A DNA stretch of 36,783 nucleotides, taken from Ectocarpus siliculosus. Lineage: Eukaryota > Sar > Phaeophyceae > Ectocarpales > Ectocarpaceae. Shown here piece after piece: positions 1-30,215 of the stretch. The notes below the pieces were generated by a model. That model was not told the origin of the DNA and did no database searches. It saw only the letters and a program-made list of their open reading frames with translations. Numbering within the stretch: position 1 is the stretch's first letter; each line of letters starts with the position of its first letter. Made by a program: the position numbers and the translations under genes. The stretch spans positions 4,457 to 41,239 of the forward strand of contig FN648677.1 in NCBI GenBank assembly GCA_000310025.1, given 5' to 3'.

Positions 1-38
1 CGTCCCAGGGCTGTCCCATGGGACGTCCCACGTGGGCT
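1..38 (-). repeat. Edge of a palindrome-rich dispersed repeat
   Basis: The first bases, read as the reverse complement, match the start of the island at 12515: a CCCACGTGGGAC block, then GTCCCATGGGAC, then AGCCCTGGGA. The match continues outward into the flank (ATTATTG and GTACTTACAT) up to about position 56. The window therefore opens inside an inverted second copy of the repeat. The rest of this copy lies outside the window. Confidence 0.75.
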
Positions 39-56
39 CCCAATAATGTAAGTACC

Positions 57-537
57 CCAAAATACTTTATTTACTAAACACACCCTGGCAGAGAATCTAC
101 ACACCAATAATCAGAGCACCCCTTCAAATAAATGCAATATCTAGAGGGATGCGATAAGACCCAAGGAACTGTCTTTGCGATTATAATAGCGGCACCCGGC
201 ATACATATATAGCAGCCAACAGACAAACTCATCATGTGTATGTGAGTGTGCAGCGGGCGTCATGTGAAATAACCGCACCGCCGTAATAGCCAGAAAGGCG
301 TAACGGTAGTCACGGACAACAACAAACGGTGCGTGTGTTCCGCAGCTACCACCGTAGAGGGCGGAATTATGGACGGGCAACGTACATTACATATGTATGC
401 GGTAACCAACTATTCATGATGTTTCGAGTAGTCCACACCACGTGTGCCACAGCGGCGCAAGCTTGTGTAACAAGCAGCGGCGTGTGTGTGCAGAAGCGTG
501 CAATTGGAACCAAAAAAATGTGTGTGTGTACGCAGTA
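57..537. other. Non-coding stretch, GT/CA-rich
   Basis: No gene is supported here. Short frames on both strands overlap each other and match no family I know. The stretch is rich in GTGTGTG and GCGTGTG runs, especially 480-537, and blends into the degenerate repeats that follow. Confidence 0.5.
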
Positions 538-1243
538 GCGTGCAAGTGCAACCAGGCGGTCGCACGGATTTGAATTTGACTACAAATAAATAAGGTATGG
601 CATACATGTACTTCCATGATGTGAGGACCGGCAACAGCTGCAGGCCTTCATCAATAGAGTGGCAGCTAGGTACGTGAAACACCAATAGCCAGGTTGGTTG
701 TTGTGGACACACCCGTGCAACAGCCAACAAGACGACACCTGCGGCGGACAAAACATCAGCGTGCCTGTGTGCAGTGTGCAGCAGGGTTTTCGTCGTGAAG
801 AAAATGCGTGGACAGCAACAGTTGGGCAATGGCGTGTAGCAGCTAACAACCACAATGTCGATAGTTGCACAAACGTAAAAGCACAGCAACACGTAAACCT
901 GTTGTGGACAAACATCAGCGTGTCTGTGTACCGGGATTTTCGTCATGAAAAAACTGCGTGCGCAATGATAGGGGGGGGGGGCAACGGCGTGAAACAACTA
1001 ACCATTGAAACGGTGGTGAGTCGACTAACAATGCCATCGGCGCATGTATGCAGCAGTAACAAACACCAAAAGCGTACACGTGCAACCAGGTGGTCGCACG
1101 AATTTGACTTTGACTAAATACGTACCTGGTATGACATTCCATGATGTGAGGACCGGGCAACAGCGGCAGGCCTTTATCAATAGAGTGTCAACTAGATACT
1201 AGGTGCATGAAACACCCAATAGCCATGGTTGGTTGTGGAAACG
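538..1243. repeat. Pair of direct repeats about 525 bp apart
   Basis: A segment at about 538-705 recurs diverged at about 1074-1243. Both contain GTGCAACCAGG, a TTTGACT stretch, CCATGATGTGAGGACCGG, AATAGAGTG and GGTTGGTTGT in the same order. The DNA between them (706-1073) has its own weaker internal repeat, a TTTTCGTC-TGAA block at about 787 and again at about 937, plus a G run at about 970. This looks like an old tandem duplication or a decaying satellite. No coding role is visible. Confidence 0.65.
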
Positions 1244-1281
1244 CCGACAAGAACCGTCTGTTGTTGGTTATTTATTTATTT

Positions 1282-1516
1282 ATTTTGTTTTCTTTCGAAT
1301 TGCTTCATTATTTCTTCGGTTTCTAGGCTACGTGTTGGGGAGAGAGACGCACGAAACGCTCATCGTCTCTCCGGCCGCGTTAGCTGCAAAGGCCGGCGTC
1401 AACTCTTACAAATCCATCTCTCTCCCCACCAATACTAGCCGGGGGACTACGACTGCAAACGCAGGAGTCCCAAAACTGACCAAGTCCTCAAATGGTACAC
1501 ACCATTCTACAACACC
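1282..1516. repeat. Repeat A, copy 1
   Basis: This 235-bp repeat starts ATTTTGTTTTCTTTCG and ends CTACAACACC. It matches 1851-2085 with essentially one difference, a C/A in CACCAATACT against CACAAATACT. It contains a small stem, GGAGAGAGACG pairing with CGTCTCTCC. Confidence 0.9.
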
Positions 1517-1584
1517 TGACTAGATACCGAATATTCCCGAACTTATGCCCCCACCTTCAAAAGAAAAGGGATGGGAGGGCGGGA

Positions 1585-1854
1585 TTTTCTAAACTGCCGC
1601 CGCTACTGCGTTAGGCGGCTGCTGCTGTCCTTCCGTTGCTTCACGCGCTCTGTAGCTGTCACACGTTACCCCACTTTGCTACAGCCCCTACGTGGACTCG
1701 ATCACGGAAAGACACCCCCAACTATAGACTAATAATTCCAAACACCGTGACCCTGGGTTTCCGGTAGAAAATGAAGCCAAATTCAAATTCGACTGTTACA
1801 AAATAAACACCAGTTTATTCTATCTGCTTCGACGAACAAACCTTCCTTTTATTT
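1585..1854. repeat. Repeat B, copy 1
   Basis: This 270-bp repeat starts TTTTCTAAACTGCCGCC and ends CCTTCCTTTTATTT. It matches 2624-2893 with about five single-base differences. A diverged relative lies at 29949-30215. Confidence 0.9.
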
Positions 1855-2085
1855 TGTTTTCTTTCGAATTGCTTCATTATTTCTTCGGTTTCTAGGCTAC
1901 GTGTTGGGGAGAGAGACGCACGAAACGCTCATCGTCTCTCCGGCCGCGTTAGCTGCAAAGGCCGGCGTCAACTCTTACAAATCCATCTCTCTCCCCACAA
2001 ATACTAGCCGGGGGACTACGACTGCAAACGCAGGAGTCCCAAAACTGACCAAGTCCTCAAATGGTACACACCATTCTACAACACC
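1851..2085. repeat. Repeat A, copy 2
   Basis: This is the second copy of A. It starts on the ATTT shared with the end of B copy 1 and ends immediately before the recombinase-bearing interior. It is the same length as copy 1. Confidence 0.9.
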
Positions 2086-2126
2086 CACATCGAGGTCAGT
2101 TTCTGGACGACTACCGAATAAGTCAA

Positions 2127-2597
2127 CTATCCGTTCCCCCAGACGGTCCCCTCCCCCGGCTGTCTCGATACGATCCTACTGCCGTCTGTAAGTTTCCGTG
2201 ACACTCGCCGCGAATCCTCTACATTGTTTCGCGCGTACGGCTTATATGCATCCGACCTCCACTTCCCTTCTCTCTGAATCACTCGTTCTGCGATGTCTCC
2301 GCCCGATGCAAGAGCCGTCGCGCCTCCAATTCGCAACGAGTGCAACGCGTACTCCTGGGGGTTACGCCCCGACTTCGCTACCACTTCTCTGACTGCACGG
2401 AGGGCAGCAGTATACCTCACTACTCTCACTGCTCTTCCACTACGGTACGAAGCCAACGGTGCGGAGTCAGGCAACGTCGCATGACACGATAACAGCTCCA
2501 CCACAAGAGCCACCGCGCCGCCGCGTGCTCTCACACCTGACTGCGGTCCGGTGACTTCGTCTCGATATGGAGAGTCGCGTGCTGGTCGCTTCCCCAA
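2127..2597 (-). pseudogene. Tyrosine recombinase, C-terminal fragment
   Basis: A 156-codon minus-strand frame ends in the catalytic half of a tyrosine recombinase (DNA strand exchange by a phosphotyrosine intermediate). Visible motifs are HSLRIGGATA, with His86 and Arg89 of the H-x-x-R box, then GKW (Trp113 in the usual His/Trp position), then SDAYKPYARNN with the candidate nucleophile at Tyr121 or Tyr118. The N-terminal half with the first catalytic arginine is missing, and residues 1-40 do not look conserved, so the start codon is arbitrary. The motif style fits DIRS/Ngaro and Crypton-like recombinases. It fills most of the 538-bp interior between the A and B repeats, so it should be the remnant that mobilised this element. 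Identification as a tyrosine recombinase is firm; the subfamily is not. Confidence 0.8.
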
Positions 2598-2623
2598 TGC
2601 TTGCGCCGTGTCCCGTCCCGCCC

Positions 2624-2893
2624 TTTTCTAAACTGCCGCCGCTACTGCGTTAGGCGGCTGCTGCTGTCCTTCCGTTGCTTCACGCGCTCTGTAGCTGTCA
2701 CACGTTACCCGACTTTGCTACAGCCCCTGCGTGGACTCGATCACGGAATGACACCCCCAACTATAGACGAATAATTCCAAACACCGTGACCCTGGGTTTC
2801 CGGTAGAAAATGAAGCCAAATTCTAATTCGACTGTTACAAAATAAACACCAGTTTATTCTATCTGCTTCGACGAACAAACCTTCCTTTTATTT
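2624..2893. repeat. Repeat B, copy 2
   Basis: This is the second copy of B, ending in the same CCTTCCTTTTATTT as copy 1, after which the flank reads ATTGCATAG. It has the same 270-bp length as copy 1. Confidence 0.9.
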
Positions 2894-4280
2894 ATTGCAT
2901 AGTCTAAGTGTCCGCAGAATACATGTAGTAGATGTTTCCGTGCCAAAGAGGACTGCGGAACATCTTCCGACATCCATACGGTACACATGCCCACCGACAT
3001 CGCAGTGCAAACGTATGGTACGACCAGACCTCCCTCGTAGCCTTCTAAAGAGAAGCGCGCGTAGCTGCACAGCCATCAAGACGTAAGAGTCAAGGTGCTG
3101 ACCACACCATCAGCGCGTGTGCAGCAGCGATCAGCAGTCGATCCGTCCAAATCGAACAAAACATTCGTGAGCACAACAGCTGCGCATGTAAATAGAAATA
3201 CATAGCTGTAATGTAAACAACAGCAAATTAACCCTTTACAACAGCAAGGTGAAACTGTAACTGTTGTATCGATAACAATCAAGGGAAAGGCAACAACCAT
3301 CCCGGCGTGCGTGTGCAGCCGCACTCAGTCCAAACGAAATAAGACCGTCGTGAGCACCGTGAGGACACGGCGTGTGCAAGAGGGATCAGAGAGCGGCACA
3401 ACGGTTTGCAATTGTTTGCAACATCCAACGAGACGTAACTAACTGTGGAACGTCTGACAGCAACATCGGCGTCTTATGTGCAACAACAGCTGATCAGTGC
3501 AAAACGAACAAGACAGTCAGTCATCAGAGAACAAGCTGTGTCCGGCGACCCGCAGTCAAACGAATTAATTGTGTTGATTGCGTGACCTTCATGGGAGAAC
3601 GTCAACACAACGAACGGTGCGCGCACCGAATTGTATAAAACGAGAGTGTAGCTGAAGCAATAACCACACAACAAGAAGGAGGCACTCCTTCGTGGTGCGA
3701 CCCCAGGCCGCCTCATCAGTGTATATGGCAGACATACATGTGTGAGACCAAGCAGCCATGTGCGCCCCAGAGTTGTGGACAAACTGAACACCGAGCAGGT
3801 GTTCCACGGGCAACATTCGTGCGTGTGCCAACAGTGCTGCATCGTTCGCAACGGAACCATACAGCAGTGCCATCCGACACACGACGCGCGCGCATGTCTC
3901 TCCGCGCGAACAGACAGCCTAGCACGGGCATGACACGTCAACTTGGAGTACGGTGTCATACCCCGAAGAAAACTCGCACGCGAACCAACGGGTGCAGGTG
4001 TCAGCAAGAAACAAAAAAAAACAATTCGTGTGTGTGCTTTTTTTTTTTTTTTTTTCGAGAACTATCAAGCCATAACGTAGTAGTTCCGCAGAAAAAAATG
4101 ATGCATGTCCGCACATAAGACCACCATGGTTGCAGTGTCCACGTCAAGAATACCGCCAAACACCATCCTCTGGTTTGTCGTGTGCCCAGTGAGCAGCGCT
4201 GTTGGAAGAAGCGGCACTCAGATGTGGGCACTCCCCCCAAACGCAAAAGCACGTCCTCTAACGACGAGCCCTGATCGCTC
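2894..4280. other. Non-coding, degenerate GTGTGCAGC-type repeats
   Basis: No gene is supported. A weak motif, roughly TCCAAA-CGAA-AAGAC followed by TCGTGAGCAC, recurs at about 3145, 3326 and 3498 (spacing about 175 bp) among many GCGTGTGCA and AACAGC words. It resembles the repeats at 480-1070. Open frames up to 177 codons exist on both strands but have no recognisable domain and overlap one another. An A run and an 18-bp T run sit at about 4013-4056. Confidence 0.5.
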
Positions 4281-4700
4281 AACTCATGCGGTTGCGGTCA
4301 AAGGACCCCCCAAGGTCCAACGTAGCCCCCCCCCGTGCCCGGCACCAGCGCGGTGTAGCACGGCGAAGCATAGGCCGCGAAGGTCGCGTCCACGAACGTG
4401 GCCGTGTAGCGGTCAGGTTGAGGAGTGGAGGTAAACGCGGGCCCACCGGTGAGCGCGCAGTCGCTGTGGGGCCGAGAGAGCCACCGCCAAGCAGTCGCCG
4501 AAGCCGCCGCGGCGGAACGCCGCGTGTTGCGAGGCGGCCTGTTACTCTGTCAAGTATTTCCTGTCTCCTCGATAGCTCCGGCGTATTTCGGGAGAGAGAA
4601 AGGGGACTGAACAAGGTAGAGTCATTTTCCAACATGCTTCATGGGATATCTGACTCTTCCCGATTTCGTTCCGAAATCCGGATTCATCTCAAATCCGAGA
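4280..4700. other. GC-rich island, possible coding remnant
   Basis: The stretch at about 4286-4550 is markedly more GC-rich than its neighbours. A minus-strand frame across about 4290-4460 gives a plausible but unrecognised peptide containing DRYTATFVDATFAAY and GTGGGYVGPWG, with no start and an early stop. It could be a fragment of a transposon gene, but I cannot assign it. The plus-strand frame over the same bases is arginine-rich low complexity. Confidence 0.2.
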
Positions 4701-4708
4701 CTACTTCT

Positions 4709-5301
4709 GTATTCATGCGTGACTCTCCCACAGGCAACAACCCTGGTAAGTAGCGCTGTGGCGAAAACAAGCCGCCACCACCCACACACTATATATGTGT
4801 GTGGTTTAGGCATTTACACTTCTGTATTCATGCGTGAATCGCCCACAGGCAACAACCCTGGTAAGTAGCGCTGTTGCGAAAAGAAGACCACCACCACAGC
4901 CACCTCACACTATATATTATATGTGTGTGGTTTCGGCATTTACCCTTCTGTGTTCATGCGTGACTCGCCCACAGGCAACAGCCCTGGAAGTAGCGCCGTA
5001 GCGAAAACAAGCCCACCACCACGGCCACAACCCACACACAGTTTATGTGTGTCGTTTCGGCAATTACACCTCTGTATTCATGCGTGACTCGCCCACAGGC
5101 AACAACCCTGGTAAGTAGGGCTGTTGTGAAAACGAGCCCACCACCCAGCCGCGACACACAGTTTATGTGTGTGGTTTGGGCATTCACACTTGTTCATGCG
5201 TGACTCGCCCACAGGCAACAATCCTGGTAAGTAGCGCTGTGGCGAAAACAATCCCACCACCACGGCCGCCACACACTATTTATTTGTGTGGTTTCGGCAT
5301 T
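4709..5301 (+). repeat. Five-copy minisatellite, units about 111-126 bp
   Basis: Units start near 4709, 4824, 4950, 5074 and 5190. Each begins with a TTCATGCGTGA word, then CCCACAGGCAACA, CCTGGTAAGTAG, a CCACCACC stretch, and a CACACACTATATATGTGTGTG inverted repeat (shortened or altered in some copies). Each intact unit carries a 12-codon mini-ORF that reads MRDSPTGNNPGK and a stop; copy 2 has Glu for Asp and copy 3 has lost one base at its end. The same bases also form an AG acceptor, 12 nt, and a GTAAGT donor. The array ends about 320 bp upstream of the transposase start at 5626. Confidence 0.85.
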
Positions 5302-5625
5302 AGGGAGTTTCGGCGTTTTTTTTTGTTTTGTCAGACAAACTGGTCAGACAAAAGGCTCAGATATTTTTGGGTGGATATTTTATCCGACCGAGTTGCCTCA
5401 GATATTTTCGGCGGCGGGATCAGTGCCGAATGGATCTGACGTGGCGGTGGGTTTCGCACTGATTGGCCAAAGGCTGAGCATAGTTGAGCCGCATATTTTC
5501 TCGCCGCACCCGCTGCACAGGACTGTGCGCTGTGCGCACCACCAGCAATCGGTGTGCTGTGTGCCCTCTTCTCTCACTTAGTTGTCAGTCACGGCCTCAG
5601 TTGCCTGTGGACTAACAGTGAAGTG
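5302..5625 (+). promoter_or_regulatory. Upstream region of the PIF/Harbinger gene
   Basis: This is the gap between the minisatellite and the first ATG of the transposase. It contains a T run, a TCAGACAAA doublet at about 5328-5352, and an AT-rich block with two AGATATTTT words (about 5358 and 5400). It presumably holds the promoter and 5' untranslated region. No TATA box or terminal inverted repeat could be fixed. Confidence 0.3.
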
Positions 5626-8582
5626 ATGCCTCGCCTACGCATTAGAGAGAGAGTAGCACGTAGGACCCGTGCGCTTGCGTTCCTCCAACCGCTAGCGGCT
5701 TGCGAACTACACTCTCAAATGTGGTTCTGGGCACACATCGGCTTCATCTACACGGTTGGGCGGCTTCCTATCGACGACACGGCAACCCCTTTGCCCGCGA
5801 GGGACATCTTCACGTTCTTGAGCGCACAGGACTGCATCAACTTTCTCCGCTTTTCTCGAGAACAGGTATGTAGGTCAGGCCAGGAATAACTGCTGTTTGC
5901 GCTCCTGCTGCTCCTACAGCAGCAGCGCTGGTGTACGTGTATAGGTCGCAGAGGTTTGGGTCGTCCGGGCATCTCTCTCTCTGCCTGTCTCTCTCTGTCT
6001 GTCTCTCTGCCTCTCTCTGTCTCTCTCTCCTCTCTCTGTCCCTTTCTTACTGCGTCTGTCTCTCTGTGTGTCTGTGTTTCAGCGTGTCTATTGTATATGC
6101 TCTTACCTTAGCCCTCTGTGTGCCTGCCTGTCGGTTTACCTCGATCTACAAAAGTCTAGACTGTACAGGTTTCAAACCACACCTCTATATTTTTTCATGT
6201 GTGCCTCTCTTTTTTGCTCCCTGTGAGCCTCTCCCGCACACTTTCTCGCGACGACTCGATGCTGATCCCCGGAATAGAGAAGAAGTAGACTGCGTACACA
6301 TGGCATACAGTATAGAATTGTAAAGGCAAGGCTCCTCGTAATTCTTCGATAAAACCCAGGTATGCAATCCGGTGTGACTACAGAACGGGACCGAAAATGA
6401 CGAAAAATTAGGCTGAAAACAAATTACTCAAATGTTTTCGAAAACTATGAAAAGAGGGCTTTCACAGGTCAACCTCGGTGAAGACATAAGGAACAAGGGG
6501 TAGCTGGTGGGGCATGTCCAATAAGAAACGTCCCACTGCTGAGTCTGTCATGCTCCCACCCCCTGCCTAGGTGTGTAGTGTTCCGGTAGGGGGGGAGAGT
6601 TTTTTTTTCGCGGCTCGGTTGGCGCTACTCCAATGTTCGCCATACCGAACTGTCGGTTTAATACTGCATGAAGGCGCGTTGTTGTTCCCTTCGCCAGAAA
6701 TAAGAGAATAAGCAAGTATGAGATTCAGCAGGATGCGACAGCCCACAGGAATAAGAAAACGGCTTGAAGACAGTAGCCGACTTCGGCTGGTCCTTCTGCC
6801 CAACATCAGAAATTGAGGCTCGACCCGATTTGGACGTTCCTTATCTCCGGGGCCGTTCTGTAGTGTCAGTGACCGGCAATGTCTACCGCAGTACCTGCGC
6901 CATGCTGGGTCCTGTACTGCATTCGCATACGACCAGACGTACATATTTTGCGTAGCATCCGACGGGTACCACGCAAGCCATATATCGTATGCTCAGGACA
7001 GATTCGAGTTCTCGTCGTCCTTATTGCGTTGGCGTCCTGCTGGAGTCCATCGATGAAACGAGACGTTGACTTCGTGCTGACCACTGACCCCTGTGTTTTT
7101 AGGTAGTGGGGATTATTGGGTCGCGTAATCTCATGCAATCCTGCCGTAGCCCCCACGAACTTGTCCACTGATTAATACACTCTTTTTGCCGCGCCCGATG
7201 CCGTTTGTTGCTGCCGAACCGTAGATCATCATCACGGTGCAGCACCTCTGTGTGCCAGACATGATTCGGACAGACTGTGGGTACGTCATCGCTGGGCGTA
7301 CGGCACTCTGCGTGCTGCTGTATCGGCTGGCTTTCCCGTGCCGGTACAAGGACATGCGCTTGATATTTCACAGGTCGGATTCATGTCTCTGCGAAACCTT
7401 CAACTACATGCTGCACTTCATGAATGAGACGTGGGGGTCGATGCTGACCCTAGATTTAGGGAGGCTGGTACCGCGGCTGGACTTTTTCGCAGAGAGGCTA
7501 CAGACATGGGGTTGTCCCCTGCCCAACTGCTGGGCGTTCATCGACGGCACCGTGCGCGCTATCTGTAGGTGCGTGTTCAGTAGCACCAAGCAAGAGGATC
7601 AATTGGTCCATTATAACACCCTCAGTCGTCATGGTCCTGTTGTTTTCTACTCCAATCCCATGATTGTCTTCTAAAGAACATTGGCCGTTTCCCTTCACCG
7701 GGAGGTTATCTCCGCCATCTCGTGGTGTACATTTGGAGCGCATAGTACAACTGCCGAGAGACAGGTCCACCCAAACTTCTCCACAGTCCCTTATTTGCTG
7801 AAAACCTGTAGCGGCCCGCAGGAGTTAAGAATACCCGTCATACGGCAGCAATAAACATAGTCGTTATTTGTAAGACCCCCGGTTGTTGTCCGTGCACGTG
7901 TCCTCACCCTACACGCGAGGAGGGCGTGACACCAAACGCATTCTGGCATTTGCGAGCCTTCTCGGTGTTTGCGTAATCGTGTTGGAGGAGCATTTGGTCC
8001 CCCCAATTCCTTTCTGACCCTGCTTGTACGTAATTGTTGCACCTGGGGTATTCGACAGGACGATACGAGAGCAACGCGCGTTCTTCAACGGACACAAGCG
8101 CTACCACGCGATTAAGCTCCAGAGTGTTGTCACTCCGGACGGCATCATGGTAGACCTCTTTGGGCCGGAGCTGGGCACTCGGCATGACGTCCACCTGTTG
8201 CACGAGTCTGGTGTGCTCGTGATGTGCCAAGAACACATGAACAGTGCATCTGGAGACCCGTACGTCGTCTACGGGGACCCCGCGTATGGCATGAGTACCC
8301 ACCTCAACTGCCCGTACTCCGCGGAGGCGTATGGTCCCCTATCGGCGGGTATGATTGAGTTCAACAAGCAAATGAGTGCATGCAGAGTCGCCGTGGAGTG
8401 GGTATTCAAGGAGATGACGTCGAAGTGGGCATTCGTTGCGCTCAAGAACCAACAGAAGCATCTTCTGAGCCCCATAGGGGTACGTACAGTACATCCACAG
8501 CTGCTTGAACGGGGGCAACGAGATCTCCCAGTTTTTCGAGTGCCCACCGCCGTCGTTAGAGGAGTACCTGGGTGTTGCGTAA
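5626..8582 (+). CDS. PIF/Harbinger DDE transposase, three exons, one frameshift
   Basis: This gene encodes the DDE nuclease that cuts and moves PIF/Harbinger DNA transposons. Exons are 5626-5865, 7225-7568 and 8059-8582, giving about 368 residues, normal for the family. Exon 1 ends in the N-terminal signature FLRFSREQ. Exon 2 has GRTALCVLLYRLAFP and FIDGT, with the first catalytic Asp at about residue 187. Exon 3 opens with QRAFFNGHKRYHAIKLQ and carries GDPAYG (Asp about 268) and AVEWVF (Glu about 308), completing the triad. Donors are CAG/GTATG and TAG/GTGCG; acceptors are GTAG and ACAG. The joins restore family-typical sequence across both introns. The tail (YVQYIHSC, then FFECPPPSLEEYL) is one base out of frame, after ATAGGGG at about 8479. 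This could be a real lesion or an error in the G run. The ATG at 5626 is the first in frame that gives a sensible N-terminus. Confidence 0.88.
5970..6075 (+). repeat. CTCTCTGT microsatellite
   Basis: Imperfect repeats of CTCTCTGTCT and CTCTCTGCCT run for about 100 bp inside intron 1. Confidence 0.8.
6761..6835 (+). repeat. Dispersed 70-bp segment, copy 1
   Basis: GACTTCGGCTGGTCCTTC, a variable 20 bp, and then GGCTCGACCCG recur in the opposite orientation at about 20575-20646. The copies are clearly diverged, roughly three quarters identical by eye. This copy lies in intron 1 of the transposase. Confidence 0.65.
7569..8058 (+). other. Intron 2 of the PIF/Harbinger gene
   Basis: This 490-bp intron begins GTGCGT and ends TCGACAG. 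It splits an arginine codon (phase 2). Removing it joins RAICR to TIREQRAFFNGHKR, the standard order in this family. Confidence 0.85.
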
Positions 8583-9547
8583 GATTGTATGCAGAACGCG
8601 TACTGTTCCCATTCGTGTGTGGTCGCGGTATCGCCACGATGAATGGTCGGCGTACGACTACTACTGTGCTCTGGTGACTCTAGTATCCGTCTTGTCTTCC
8701 TTTCATCGGTGATCCTAATGGCTTGTGGCTTGCGGAAACTGAACGGATAGTATTGGGCCGTACGCGCAGAAGTGGTAATGGTCAACAAGCTGAAACATCG
8801 TTTTTGTTCCAATCTTTTGTTCGAGTGGCGAAATGCTCCTGCAGGAATGCTGGTGTCATGAAGATATTTGCTGAGGAATATTCTTGTGGATTGGCATCTT
8901 GAGAAGTACTGAGAAGCGATCTGGATGGCGATCGCAGTTCAACCTTGTACGGCGTTGGTTTTCGGGGGAGGATCCGTCATTAATTGGTGATTGGTGGAGA
9001 CGGGTTTGGACGGAAGAGGTAGGATTTGGGAGAGGGTACTGTCTTGAGGGGACAGAATATGTACTGATGGATGAAGAAACATGATTAGGTATTTGGTGAA
9101 TCAACGGATTCCAGACGGTGACGTCTTGCAGGACACCGTTGTCTGGGGAGATTCAGTACGAATTGGAACGATGGACTATCAATGTTGGGATTGAGGCTAC
9201 TAAGGCCACGTTGCGCGATGTGAGGCCAAGAATCAATATATCGTATCTACTGTAGTACCGACGGGCTGCTGTAAGTACTCAGTATGTACGGATCGCACTA
9301 GGTACGGATAGCACTAGGTTTGGATCTACGGAGATCTAGGTTGCGTGTATCATGTTGGTATGCGTTTTGTAGAAGGGCGATACCCCTTCTACGTGCATGG
9401 ACACCAGTCCCAAACTTCGTTTTTGTTCACGATCCAATTACAAATTTTGTATCTGACTAGAGATACCTAAGGTCAACTTGGGGACGAAACATGCAAAAAT
9501 GAAAGCTGGAGGGAGGGTCAACAGCAACGTGCGGTAAAGCATGAGTT
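8583..9547. other. Downstream of PIF/Harbinger, no assigned gene
   Basis: No gene is assigned. A plus-strand frame at 8884-9084 (66 codons, with RRWFSGEDPSLIGDWWRRVW) looks protein-like but matches nothing I know, and it could belong to the second ORF that Harbinger elements often carry. At 9286-9320, GTACGGAT-GCACTAGG is repeated twice. I could not find a terminal inverted repeat pairing with the 5.3-kb side. Confidence 0.3.
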
Positions 9548-25129: not shown

Positions 25130-25925
25130 TTGACGTTTGCATAAGGTACCCCACGGGAGGTGGGTTGTAGGGCCGTTGGTGAGCAAATGGGTAGCATAAG
25201 TAGGAGGGTGCCCGCACGTACAGTGGCAGTGTTTTCGGTCTGCATCGTACACGGGGTACAGCACCAGGACGTAGACAAGGGTACTGGAGGAGAACAACAC
25301 CTCGTTTTTTGGGTGAGCGTTCAACTAACGAATAAAAAATAAAAAGAGAACATGTGTACAATCAATGAAACGTGGGCAACATATGGAGTGCCACCGGAGC
25401 GGCGGGACGGCCGGTCCGGCGAAGGGACAAACTAACGCACACAACGAATATTGGAGCGACGCGTGGTCGGCGTTTTTTCGTTTGCACGGAGACTTGCAGC
25501 ACGCATTTGGCGCACAACACAAATTTTATAGCAAATATAAAACGAACTCACGCGCTTGCTCGGTCAAACGTGTTTGCACCGCTGCACCGTGCCCTTTCTT
25601 GGCTTGGACTTCGGTCGACAAAAGGGTGATTTGGCTCGCTAGATTATTTTCGCTATGTAAGAACGTACACATGCACGCATGTGTAGAAGGACAGACACGA
25701 ACAGTACCTCGTGAAGGCCTTTGAGACCACAGTCCTCGTGTTGCACCATGACCCAGGTTGGAGAGGGAGCAGATGATTTTCTGCGCGAGCGCACACGACG
25801 AGTAGCGAAAATCCGTACAGGCTCTGTTGGGAAAAATGGAGCGAGCGAGCAAAATGTCCAGCGCCCAGATGTCGACCTCAGTCCAGACGTTTTGATGAAG
25901 GAGCAGCCCGGGGTGACACGCACAA
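25130..25925 (+). other. Gag-pol gap of the retroelement
   Basis: No conserved domain is visible. Short frames such as the one at 25365-25724 are open. The gap probably holds the decayed N-terminus of the polymerase protein. AATAAAAAATAAAA lies at about 25331. Confidence 0.35.
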
Positions 25926-28112
25926 GCGCCAGTGTGGAGGCAGGGCGATTTTGTTCCCGGTCACCTCAAGTACCACGTGGCGTTTTGGGAAAAAGTTTGT
26001 TTTTCGTGTGTACGCCTGACAAAGGCGATGTATCTAAGAGGGTATTGGCCCGAAGACAGAAGGATCGTTTCAAGGCAAGGAGTACAGAGGCTCAGAAATG
26101 ACAACTGTCGAACTGCCCAACCATGTACCCGAGGCGTTCGAAGTTTTCGTGGACGAGCACGTGAGGGTTACACGGGAAATTGGGGGTGGTAGTGCCGTCG
26201 GAGACGGTGGCAGATACCTCGAAATACCCTAAGCCACACGCGCGCTGGTTGAACCTTACGGGCAACCAGTACCCTCTCAAGATGGATGCCGTAGGAGAAG
26301 TGGCTCAGTGCACATGGCCAGGAGCTTTTCAGATGACAGCGGATCACAAGTCAGGTTTCCATCACGTACCACTCGATAAGGCATCGTGTCATTACTTCGT
26401 TTTTGCGTGGCGAGGCAGGTATAACGTAATTACGGCACTGTGTTTTGGTTGGTGCTCGTCTCTTTACAAATACCACTCACTTTCGGCGGTCGTTTCAAGA
26501 TACCTTCGCAAAAAAGGGACCCCGCTGCTCACGTGGATAGACGGTTTCTACTTCACGAATTTAAGAGCGACACGGGAGCTCTACCCGGCGATTCAGGCAA
26601 AGGCGGCGACGGTAACCGCGTACGTGGTGATGAAGGTATTCTACAAGGCAGGGTACTTTATGTCGATCGACAAGTCCGAATTGGAGGCTACGACCTGTTT
26701 GATCTTTTTGGGGGTTGTATGCGACTCGATCGAGAAACATTTCTTCATCCCGGAGTCGAAGCTCGATAAGTTGGAAGCGATATCAGTCGAGGCACTAGAG
26801 CAGGAGGTCATTTGTTTCGGACGCTAGAGAAGCTGGCAGGCAAGTGTACAAGCATGTCGGTGGCGTGCCCCGCCCCAGCGTTGTATACGCATCACATGTA
26901 CCAGGCCATAGGCAAGCATCAACGGGGAGGGGGCCGAGAGCAGAACACGGAGATCGCCGTGACGAGGAATTGCGGATTGCGTCCTGAGATAGAGAACTGG
27001 ATGGAAGTGCGAAAGGCGATCAACGGGGCATCGTGGTACAAGGCGGTGCACCAGACTTTGCACATCGAGGGAGCCTCAGACGTCTCATCGCGAGGATGGG
27101 GAGGTCTCTTGTCCAGGCGAGGAAGTGTTGAGAGCAGCGGGAGATTTTCCGGATGTGTAGTCCACGAGGCACATCAACGAGCAAGAAGCGTACGCGTTGA
27201 AGCAGACGTTGGTGTGGTACTGTAAGGAGCGGCCGAAACGCGGCCCAAACAAGTCCAGGGGTCGACGTTGGTGATAGAGGTAGACAACGAGGCGCTTTTG
27301 TACGCGGCGAAGAGAGAAGATCGACGAATTCCTGTTTGCACAAAGTACTCACCGAGTTGGTTTGGCTGCAAGCGAACGAGGACTTCACCCTGAGGTTGCA
27401 GTGGGTGTGCTCGCGCGACAACGCCCAAGCGGACGACTTGTCAAGACCAGACGCGGATTCGTATGTAAGGTTGCAGGAGGCGAGTGTTGCGGAGTTGTGG
27501 AAGTGGTCGGGCCGACGTTTTGACATGGATTGGATGGCGACAAAAGCTTCCGCGCAGTGGGTACCAGGAAGTGGGAACAAGCTGCCTTTCTATTCTCGTT
27601 TTCACGTGGAGGGAGGTGCAGGGACGGACGTGCTTTGTTATGATTTACGATACATGCCAGGTTCACAAACGCCGTGTTTCGGTTTCTGCTTTCCGCCCAC
27701 AGCTATGGTGGGTGTGATATTGCAACGAATGGCAGAATGCAAGGCGCAGGCAGTGTTATTAGTACCAGACCGGCAGCAGGCGTGGTACCCAATGTTGGCA
27801 GACGCGACAGTGCGAGCGGTTCAGGCAAATACAGCTTCGATGGAGAGTCGATGCGCGACAATGCACTGGTACACGCGATTCTTACGATCGCAGAAGACTG
27901 GGCGAGCGGTGGAGATGGGGGAAACGCAACCGAGGGACGTGGTGCACTATTTGTGTTGGTTAGACTCATGCGGCAAAAGGAGGCGAACGGTAGTCCATGT
28001 ACGGGACTGCACAACCGTAGGTACGACGAGTTTAGAGGAGTGTTCCACGGAGAAAGGAACATGTACGAAAAGATACGCACACGATTCGTTGCGAACTGAT
28101 CATGTCTCGTAG
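25926..28112 (+). pseudogene. Reverse transcriptase and RNase H of the retroelement
   Basis: This protein would copy element RNA into DNA. An N-terminal helix block (HLKYHVAFWEKV, LRGYWPEDR) is followed in another frame by VFVDEHV and then GVVVPSETV, WLNLTGNQYPLKMD, the motif-A region ADHKSGFHHVPL and the motif-C region TWIDGFYF (26534-26545). Motif C should be two adjacent aspartates; here the second is Gly. RNase H follows: LAGKCTSMSVACPAPALY, then ASDVSSRGWGG (first Asp, 27079), NEQEAYAL in another frame (Glu), VIEVDNEALL (Asp, about 27283) and RDNAQADDLSR (last Asp). All four acidic residues survive, but in three frames. The conserved DIRS-type tail (MDWMATKAS to FPPTAMVGVILQRM) is intact at 27336-28112. 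Several frameshifts make it a pseudogene. Confidence 0.82.
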
Positions 28113-29019
28113 TTAGCCGAAGCTTGTGAGAAGGAGATGGGTTGTACTCATGACTGGAATAGCCAAAGACGGACAGGAAATCCGGTAAGAAGTGAGCTAG
28201 TAACACAGTACATGCGGTTCACGACACGACAGCAGAAGAAGGCACGTGTACTGGTCAAGCAAGCGCCGGCAATCCTGCGCAGTCATTTACATCAGATGGT
28301 AGTCCCGATGAGAATTGAGATTGACTATGCCACATCGAAGGTGAAGAAAGTAAGCTTGGCAAGGGACGTGGCGTTTTTTATGGTAGCTTTCAATACTACC
28401 AAACGGGGCGATGAGCTAGTGAGCACACTCATTCAGCGCATTATGAGATTGCCAAATAAGAGCTGCTTGATGTTCAGTTCCCAGTGGGGCAGGACGCAGA
28501 GGGACGGAGCAGACCACGTGGTAACGGTAGAGTACGACTTCGAATGTTTGCCCTTGTGTCCAGTAAGAGCGATAGAGCGATACGTGAAGGTTGGCAAGTT
28601 CATGGGTTGGGATATGACCTCCGGGTATTTGTTCTCGGCGATATCGGAGGAGAAGAGGAGTGGACACCCGAAGAGAAAGACGAAGCCGGTCACGGCTAGT
28701 TACATGACCGCAGCATTGAAGGATACGCCAAGGAGTCGGGGCTCGAGCAGGAGTTTTCAATGCGTGCGTTAGGGCGGGAGGCGCCATTTCGAGGGCTTCG
28801 GCAGGAGAGTCCATGTCGGCTATCATGCAAGGAGCTTACTGGGAGAACCCGAAGACGGCGTGGAGGTAAATGAGACTTATGGAAGTGGTAGCGCCTGGAT
28901 CGGGGACCGAAGGGGTGATTGAGGGAGTTGCGGAGGAGCAGAAAAGACAATTGAACGAGTTTCCCTTGAGCGAGAAGAGCCGTTCATTGGCGGCGTTTGG
29001 AAACAAGCCTCTATTGTAA
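28113..29019 (+). pseudogene. Tyrosine recombinase of the retroelement
   Basis: This enzyme would integrate the element without target duplication. The core at 28137-28772 has ARDVAFFMVAFNTTKRGDELV with the first catalytic Arg at 28404-28406, then CPVRAIERYV. The second box reads RAGGAISRASAGESM from 28771, one base out of frame with the upstream part. The expected H-x-x-R appears as R-A-L-R, so its His seems changed. The codon 32 positions after the box Arg, where the nucleophilic Tyr is expected (the related minus-strand recombinase at 2127-2597 has Tyr121 there), is TAA (28867-28869). The same frame then stays open to TAA at 29017-29019. A 12-bp A run follows. The copy cannot make an active recombinase. 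Confidence 0.78.
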
Positions 29020-29094: not shown

Positions 29095-29180
29095 GTGTCT
29101 TCACCAGCCGCGGGGGGTGAGGACACTGTCTCATCCCACACTATATGGTAAGAACAAACCGTCACGAAGATACTAATGTA
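29095..29180 (+). repeat. Hairpin-bearing end repeat, copy 1
   Basis: It starts GTGTCTTCACC, has a GC-rich loop and then GGTGAGGACAC, followed by CCCACACTA and AACCGTCACGAAGATA. The first two parts form an 11-bp stem with one G-T pair. It is repeated at 29461-29548. Confidence 0.85.
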
Positions 29181-29948: not shown

Positions 29949-30215
29949 TTTTGCTAAGCTGCGCCACCGCACTGGGCGGCAGTTGCTGTCCTTCCGTTTC
30001 TTCACGCGCTCTGTGGCTCCCACGCCTTACTCAACAAGCTACAGTGCTGCGAGTTCTCGTGCACAAAATGGCATCAAAGACGAATTTGTTTCGACACCCG
30101 TGACCCCGGGTTTCCCGACAGATAAAGAAGCCTAATCTACATGGTTCGTTTCAATAGTAACCTCAGGTTATTCTCTCTGCTCCACCACTATCCTTTCCTT
30201 TTCTTTGTTCGAACC
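29949..30215 (+). repeat. Diverged solo relative of repeat B
   Basis: It shares with repeat B (1585-1854) the order TTTTGCTAAGCTGC, GGCGGC, TTGCTGTCCTTCCGTT, CTTCACGCGCTCTGT, GTGACCC-GGGTTTCC and a TTATTCTCTCTGCT block. Identity is perhaps two thirds by eye. It is in the same orientation as the B copies, opposite to what the neighbouring plus-strand retroelement would need, so it is probably an independent remnant. Confidence 0.65.

Follow-up and report, generated by a model that had tools for sequence, protein, structure and literature searches.

Introduction

TOC1 of Chlamydomonas is a coding-poor element with split direct repeats (SDRs) and internal tandem repeats, and Cryptons are tyrosine recombinase (YR) DNA transposons that are not known to carry such split repeats. 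The SDR order A1-ORFs-B1A2B2 is described for Ngaro, PAT and VIPER elements (PMC8547959, PMC4157794, PMC6681497, PMC9210276), and isolated AB repeats are reported for the Ngaros of Cafeteria (PMC8547959). VIPER has a short form, SIRE, whose two parts of 185 and 220 bp flank about 30 bp of exclusive sequence and which corresponds to A2-B2 (PMC6681497). Target duplication is absent from the insertions of VIPER and TATE (PMC12278014) and from those of DIRS1-like elements (PMC3266345), and Cryptons carry a YR domain only (PMC4157794). A brown-alga repeat library counts 15 Ngaro and five PAT-like families for Ectocarpus, and the EsV-1-7 domain has proliferated in brown algae (PMC12477816).

Here we analyse a window of 36,783 nucleotides from Ectocarpus siliculosus (positions 4,457 to 41,239 of contig FN648677.1, assembly GCA_000310025.1), to which all coordinates refer unless a locus is named. 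In it lies what is best read as a non-autonomous YR element with split direct repeats, a copy shortened by an internal deletion and belonging to a family that is numerous and was recently active.

Results

Anatomy of the copy in the window

Repeat detection on the window returned two pairs of direct repeats, 1279-1516 with 1848-2085 and 1585-1854 with 2624-2893, bearing out the A-B-A-B arrangement around a YR fragment that a first-pass annotation had read from the letters alone. The lengths it gave, 235 and 270 bp, did not hold. Comparison with other copies fixes the ends of the element exactly, at 1279-2886 (1608 bp), with A repeats of 238 bp and B repeats of 263 bp; the extra 7 bp of the 270-bp B are a chance likeness between the start of A2 and the right flank. 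A1 and A2 differ at one position, B1 and B2 at five.

All parts were assigned to the minus strand, that of the recombinase. At one outer end lies A1 (1279-1516), which starts with TTTATTTTG at 1279 and is the 3' terminal repeat (Y2) on the recombinase strand; it is followed by a spacer of 68 bp (1517-1584), already seen in the annotation, and by B1 (X2, 1585-1847), terminating in CCTTCCT. A2 (Y1, 1848-2085) comes next, and the B1|A2 joint at 1847|1848 is the right terminus of the element joined exactly, end to end, with its left terminus. Between A2 and B2 lies the interior (2086-2623, 538 bp), which carries the minus-strand YR in truncated form and is made of a recombinase side (2086-2564), whose ORF at 2127-2597 (-) retains YR residues 271-415, and of 59 bp from the far side (2565-2623). 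B2 (X1, 2624-2886), again with CCTTCCT, is the other outer end and the 5' terminal repeat on the recombinase strand. The order on that strand is X1-interior-Y1X2-spacer-Y2 (X being B and Y being A), that is, the PAT/Ngaro split order the annotation had proposed, and it recurs in the full copies L009, L012 and L017. These repeats are direct, unlike the inverted terminal repeats with an internal complementary region of DIRS1-like elements, and none of the six inverted pairs listed for positions 1-6000 has arms at both ends of the element.

The surroundings of the copy are a (TTTA)n tract. Elsewhere the window contains five degenerate tandem copies of a unit of roughly 120 bp (4659-5301), a DDE_Tnp_4 transposase fragment (8018-8677 (+), Pfam E 3e-19) and a short remnant of a DIRS-type recombinase (19339-19172 (-), 41% over 63 aa).

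Full-length relatives and subfamilies

Searching the assembly (189 Mb, 492 contigs) with A and B, a check that the annotation had recommended, gave 355 first-look candidates for A and 338 for B, the best 40 of each being scored. The same assembly gives 150 scored matches, out of 880 candidates, to the EsV-1-7 motif family, which was found in none of 14 control genomes, as fits a brown alga. The search with A and B revealed many copies with full-length relatives among them, and the suspected recent mobility of the family is supported. The gap-free copy L012 (C12) measures 6514 bp and runs from A1-spacer-B1-A2 through its interior to B2 at the opposite end; L009 resembles it, with a 100-base gap. 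The interior of the window copy consists of the first 479 and the last 59 bp of the full-copy interior; compared with L012, 4.9 kb has been deleted at 2564|2565, with no microhomology. What had been described as a very short element is a deletion of one of 6.5 kb. We also considered that the window copy might be an amplified mini-element, against which stands the deletion joint itself: the window copy is its only full-length match among the best 40 scored of 279 candidates.

Six loci (L013-L018) represent an older subfamily, with recombinases 81-85% identical. A-spacer-B-A stands at one end in five of them (L013, L014, L016, L017 and L018) and, within the stretch examined, B2 is whole in L017 and partial in L014; L015 has a single A and B2, which is the A-interior-B form. 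Among the loci examined, 50 carry a pair of A repeats spaced at the standard distance, with spacer and B between the two in all 50; the spacer occurs in two subfamilies. It can hardly be, as had been suggested, the sign of tandem circles at this particular locus.

The long non-coding interior of L009 is a tandem array (3823-5090) with periods of about 95 and 251 bp, and L010, L012 and L013 match it much as it matches itself, which suggests that the array is common to these copies. L078 and L079 hold related repeats with A (89%) and spacer. In viral contigs, 27 pattern matches yielded no relative of the element.

Single-unit forms

Twenty A1 ends were picked for having no listed YR alongside, and so form a non-random sample. 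Seven are A-spacer-B units (L097 without its B end, L100 running into a gap), seven pass from A into the interior without spacer-B1-A2, two are standard and four rearranged. One of the seven spacer-less forms, L086, was read to both ends and is a 1.6-kb A-interior-B. The single-unit forms match recombination between B1 and B2 and between A1 and A2, or two circles resolved from the full circle. The earlier description of two joined units, A-spacer-B and A-interior-B, is right as to SDR topology, and both units occur alone; it fails as an event at this locus, being a trait of the family.

The tyrosine recombinase

Full copies have a minus-strand YR ORF of 415 aa, whose residues 271-415 are matched by the window ORF at 98%. 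The 415-aa protein shows the motifs ITRSDE (204), GHKAD (255), HSLRIGG (345) and GKWRSDAYKPY (370), arranged as the catalytic residues are in tyrosine recombinases; the window fragment retains HxxR, W and Y and is missing the first part, with ITRSDE and GHKAD. In BLASTP against the recombinases of DIRS-type elements of the same genome that bear a reverse transcriptase (RT), only the box HSLRIGG...GKWRSDAYKPY aligned (E 3e-5), and hhalign gave a probability of 32% (E 5e-4). Pfam recognised no integrase domain in the protein, a domain that is present below cut-off in the DIRS-type recombinases of the genome; a PDB profile search returned no recombinase and four weak unrelated matches (best E 0.09), and AlphaFold modelled the window fragment with a pLDDT of 37. 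The protein is probably a YR, an identification supported by motifs and position, and less by score. Judged by its sequence, it appears too diverged from the RT-bearing elements of the genome for placement.

Of 755 YR candidates the best 101 were scored. The 102 matches listed include 47 that span residues 1-415, 43 of them without a stop, and 13 that have the top score in common. Between subfamilies the YR changes less at amino-acid than at silent sites, with dN/dS of 0.39, 0.44 and 0.50 over 327 codons in three mutually dependent comparisons. Upstream of the YR ORF, and overlapping it, is a second ORF, with Pfam matches below cut-off.

Search for a reverse transcriptase

The only two ORFs of at least 200 aa in the gap-free L012 are the YR and an antisense frame, so that ORF length gives no RT. 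In tblastn, two RT proteins of the same genome found no RT in eight loci (L009, L010, L012, L013, L014, L016, L017 and L018, some incomplete and L009 gapped; best E 0.25), and they had no match in the element of the window, in agreement with the annotation. Each of the two does detect relatives of the other, at 38-59% identity. Both come from this genome and neither is of Ngaro type, and an unusual RT may have escaped them. Their C-terminal part is presumably an MT domain, which PAT elements have and Ngaro elements lack; this too found no match by tblastn, and Pfam recognises no MT even in those two proteins. RT and RNase H were found in none of the loci tested, which is why we do not file the element as an autonomous member of its class but, at most, as a non-autonomous relative. 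As for an RT partner with A/B termini, none was seen, the four RT loci that were read showing no A/B likeness.

The window has an RT-bearing element of its own, detected at about 25.7-27.8 kb by tblastn with the RT proteins. The stretch 25700-29000 (+) has the make-up of a DIRS/PAT-type element, RT-RNase H-YR, in a decayed state, with pieces 35-63% identical to L074 proteins; downstream of its recombinase, 71 bp are directly repeated at 29110 and 29478. At 29950-30206 (+) lies an isolated B-like repeat, 68-70% identical to B1/B2, with no A repeat near. We discarded this element as a partner: no A is nearby, and the plus-strand B-like repeat adjoins a plus-strand recombinase, whereas in the family studied here a plus-strand B goes with a minus-strand recombinase, which suggests that the two are not partners. 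The N-terminal part of DIRS-type recombinases matches the ALOG domain of plants in the window (27201-28112 (+)), in L074 (1791-3380) and in L077 (5355-6911), above cut-off in L074 only; this domain has reportedly been proposed to be related to DIRS-type recombinases.

Ends, flanks and insertion sites

Among the 100 matches listed out of 118, the left end is exactly TTTATTTTG in 83 outer left ends, the others being four internal joints and 13 ends with different letters. On the right the element ends with CCTTCCT, beyond which the flank is variable (76 sites, found with a pattern that includes CCTTCC and requires non-G at two further positions, so that some sites are missed). The right flanks are T-rich: of 72 of them, 61 have T at +2, 55 at +3, 52 at +5 and 47 at +6. 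G occupies -1 in 41 of 81 left flanks.

Empty sites, whose search had also been advised, were found in two cases. The C57 copy lies within the B repeat of another copy, where it splits ACCAG|TTTATTC without gain or loss. A solo A-spacer-B unit is inserted in the L010 copy at a T-run that is uninterrupted in L009, the lengths of the run differing by one. In both comparisons (n=2) insertion left no target duplication and no duplicated target core, which speaks against tandem circles at this locus. The position of the window copy in a (TTTA)n tract fits the same insertion rule. The ATTT noted at all three junctions is indeed there in the window copy, but it is not a conserved core: other copies' right flanks vary directly after CCTTCCT, which rules it out as a recombination core. 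A duplicated 3-bp core, TTT, was dropped because TTT is absent from some right flanks (e.g. L012).

Renewal of the A repeats

We compared A1 with A2 in 50 copies that passed a length filter, omitting L001, L003 and L005 as duplicate or partial. Nine variants, in eight copies, are private to one copy and yet found in both its A1 and its A2; for seven variants occurring in at least two copies, A1 and A2 agree in 38 of 39 cases; and none of the variants is specific to A1, or to A2, across several of the 50 copies. Non-consensus cells shared by the two repeats number 47, against a mean of 5.5 when A2 is permuted among copies (reached in 0 of 2000 shuffles), a null that is imperfect since copies are related. 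Such variants, common to A1 and A2 within copies, indicate that both repeats are renewed from one source, in the manner of LTRs. Reverse transcription across the inner joint would be the simplest cause, and gene conversion could be an alternative one. A further 45 variants are confined to a single repeat, as expected of mutation after insertion. They are in excess in A2, with 32 against 13 in A1. For B1 and B2, the 12 pairs (three with a truncated B) yield too few variants informative on concerted evolution, and no fixed difference between the two.

Discussion

The repeats A1 ... B1 A2 B2 of the SDR-YR class are whole in the window copy, L009, L012 and L017 and partly present in the others, a YR is encoded (weak or nil by methods other than the BLASTP box), and target duplication is absent in two cases. 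The element resembles Ngaro in the order of its split direct repeats, the YR beside the inner repeats, a length of about 6 kb and AB solo forms (PMC8547959, PMC9210276); this likeness is one of description, and the element differs in having no detected RT/RNase H and a 68-bp spacer between A2 and B2. The VIPER of trypanosomatids, also compared by description, shares with it the A1 ... B1 A2 B2 order and the lack of target duplication (PMC12278014), but encodes RT/RH. SIRE parallels the element in being a short form found on its own and in having a spacer that separates A2 from B2 (PMC6681497), and its exclusive sequence between the two parts means that such a spacer is not new. The PAT group, TOC and Kangaroo included, likewise has split direct repeats, together with RT/RH and an MT domain (PMC4157794), neither of which was found in the element. 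With Cryptons the element shares the YR as its sole recognisable enzyme; it does not belong with them, since split repeats are present in each of the 50 two-A copies.

We consider it probable that this is an SDR YR retroelement of Ngaro/PAT/VIPER type that has kept its recombinase, lacks an RT and is supplied with one in trans. The mechanism we infer from the anatomy and the variant patterns would be the following. An RNA spanning X1 to Y2 would be copied by the RT of another element, with the Y1|X2 joint as the template that closes the ends into a circle, and the element's own YR would then integrate the circle into the chromosome by recombination at its joint. Lying between X2 and Y2 as a single copy, the spacer would simply be carried along, and A-spacer-B and A-interior-B would arise by B1xB2 and A1xA2 recombination or from two corresponding smaller circles.

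A doubtful alternative is an SDR lineage that has permanently lost its RT, in which the YR is under selection, the element moves as DNA circles only or with RT stolen from unrelated elements, and A-spacer-B and A-interior-B are given off as two competent sub-circles. An improbable one is a DNA-only YR transposon that evolved split repeats and whose excised circle reinserts by a Crypton-like mechanism, with no RNA step. The tested copies do encode a constrained YR and no detectable RT, the insertion is clean and without duplication in two cases, and both single-unit forms are products to be expected if a YR resolved such a circle at its two identical joints. However, excision and reinsertion alone fail to homogenise A1 and A2 or to yield many near-identical copies, for which gene conversion and a replicative gain would be needed, and SDRs are described for RT elements (PMC6681497, PMC4157794, PMC8547959). 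The homogenisation of A1 and A2 argues against a Crypton and for an RNA step.

It is also conceivable, and quite improbable, that the genome contains a full master of this family, complete with RT, that was not reached, the 6.5-kb copies being deletion derivatives that outnumber it. Since only the best candidates were scored (101 of 755 for YR, 40 of 355 for A), rarer and distant members may be hidden, and related repeats at 70-89% do exist. Yet neither the L009/L012 type nor the L013/L014/L016/L017/L018 type gave an RT match, which would make the loss of RT old, and the YR stays constrained. Finally, a tandem integration, peculiar to this locus, of two circles at a short ATTT core, one of the circles having an internal deletion, would account for the repeat order and for the likeness to TTTATTT that the three joints of the window copy show. 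This is a scarcely credible reading when all 50 two-A copies have the same spacer and order and right flanks have no common ATTT core.

Among the papers that literature searches listed, no title or opening of an abstract describes an SDR family that keeps its YR and is devoid of RT, and the published brown-alga library may well include this family already (PMC12477816). What we report belongs to a known class of elements, with modest peculiarities: a regular spacer, and a YR kept without a detectable RT. The A1/A2 pattern over 50 copies provides evidence from many insertions for the renewal of both repeats from a single source in each round, as models of these elements require. Being young and present in many copies, with filled and empty sites, an end-to-end joint, solo units and a YR without RT, the family is a testbed for the roles of split repeats.
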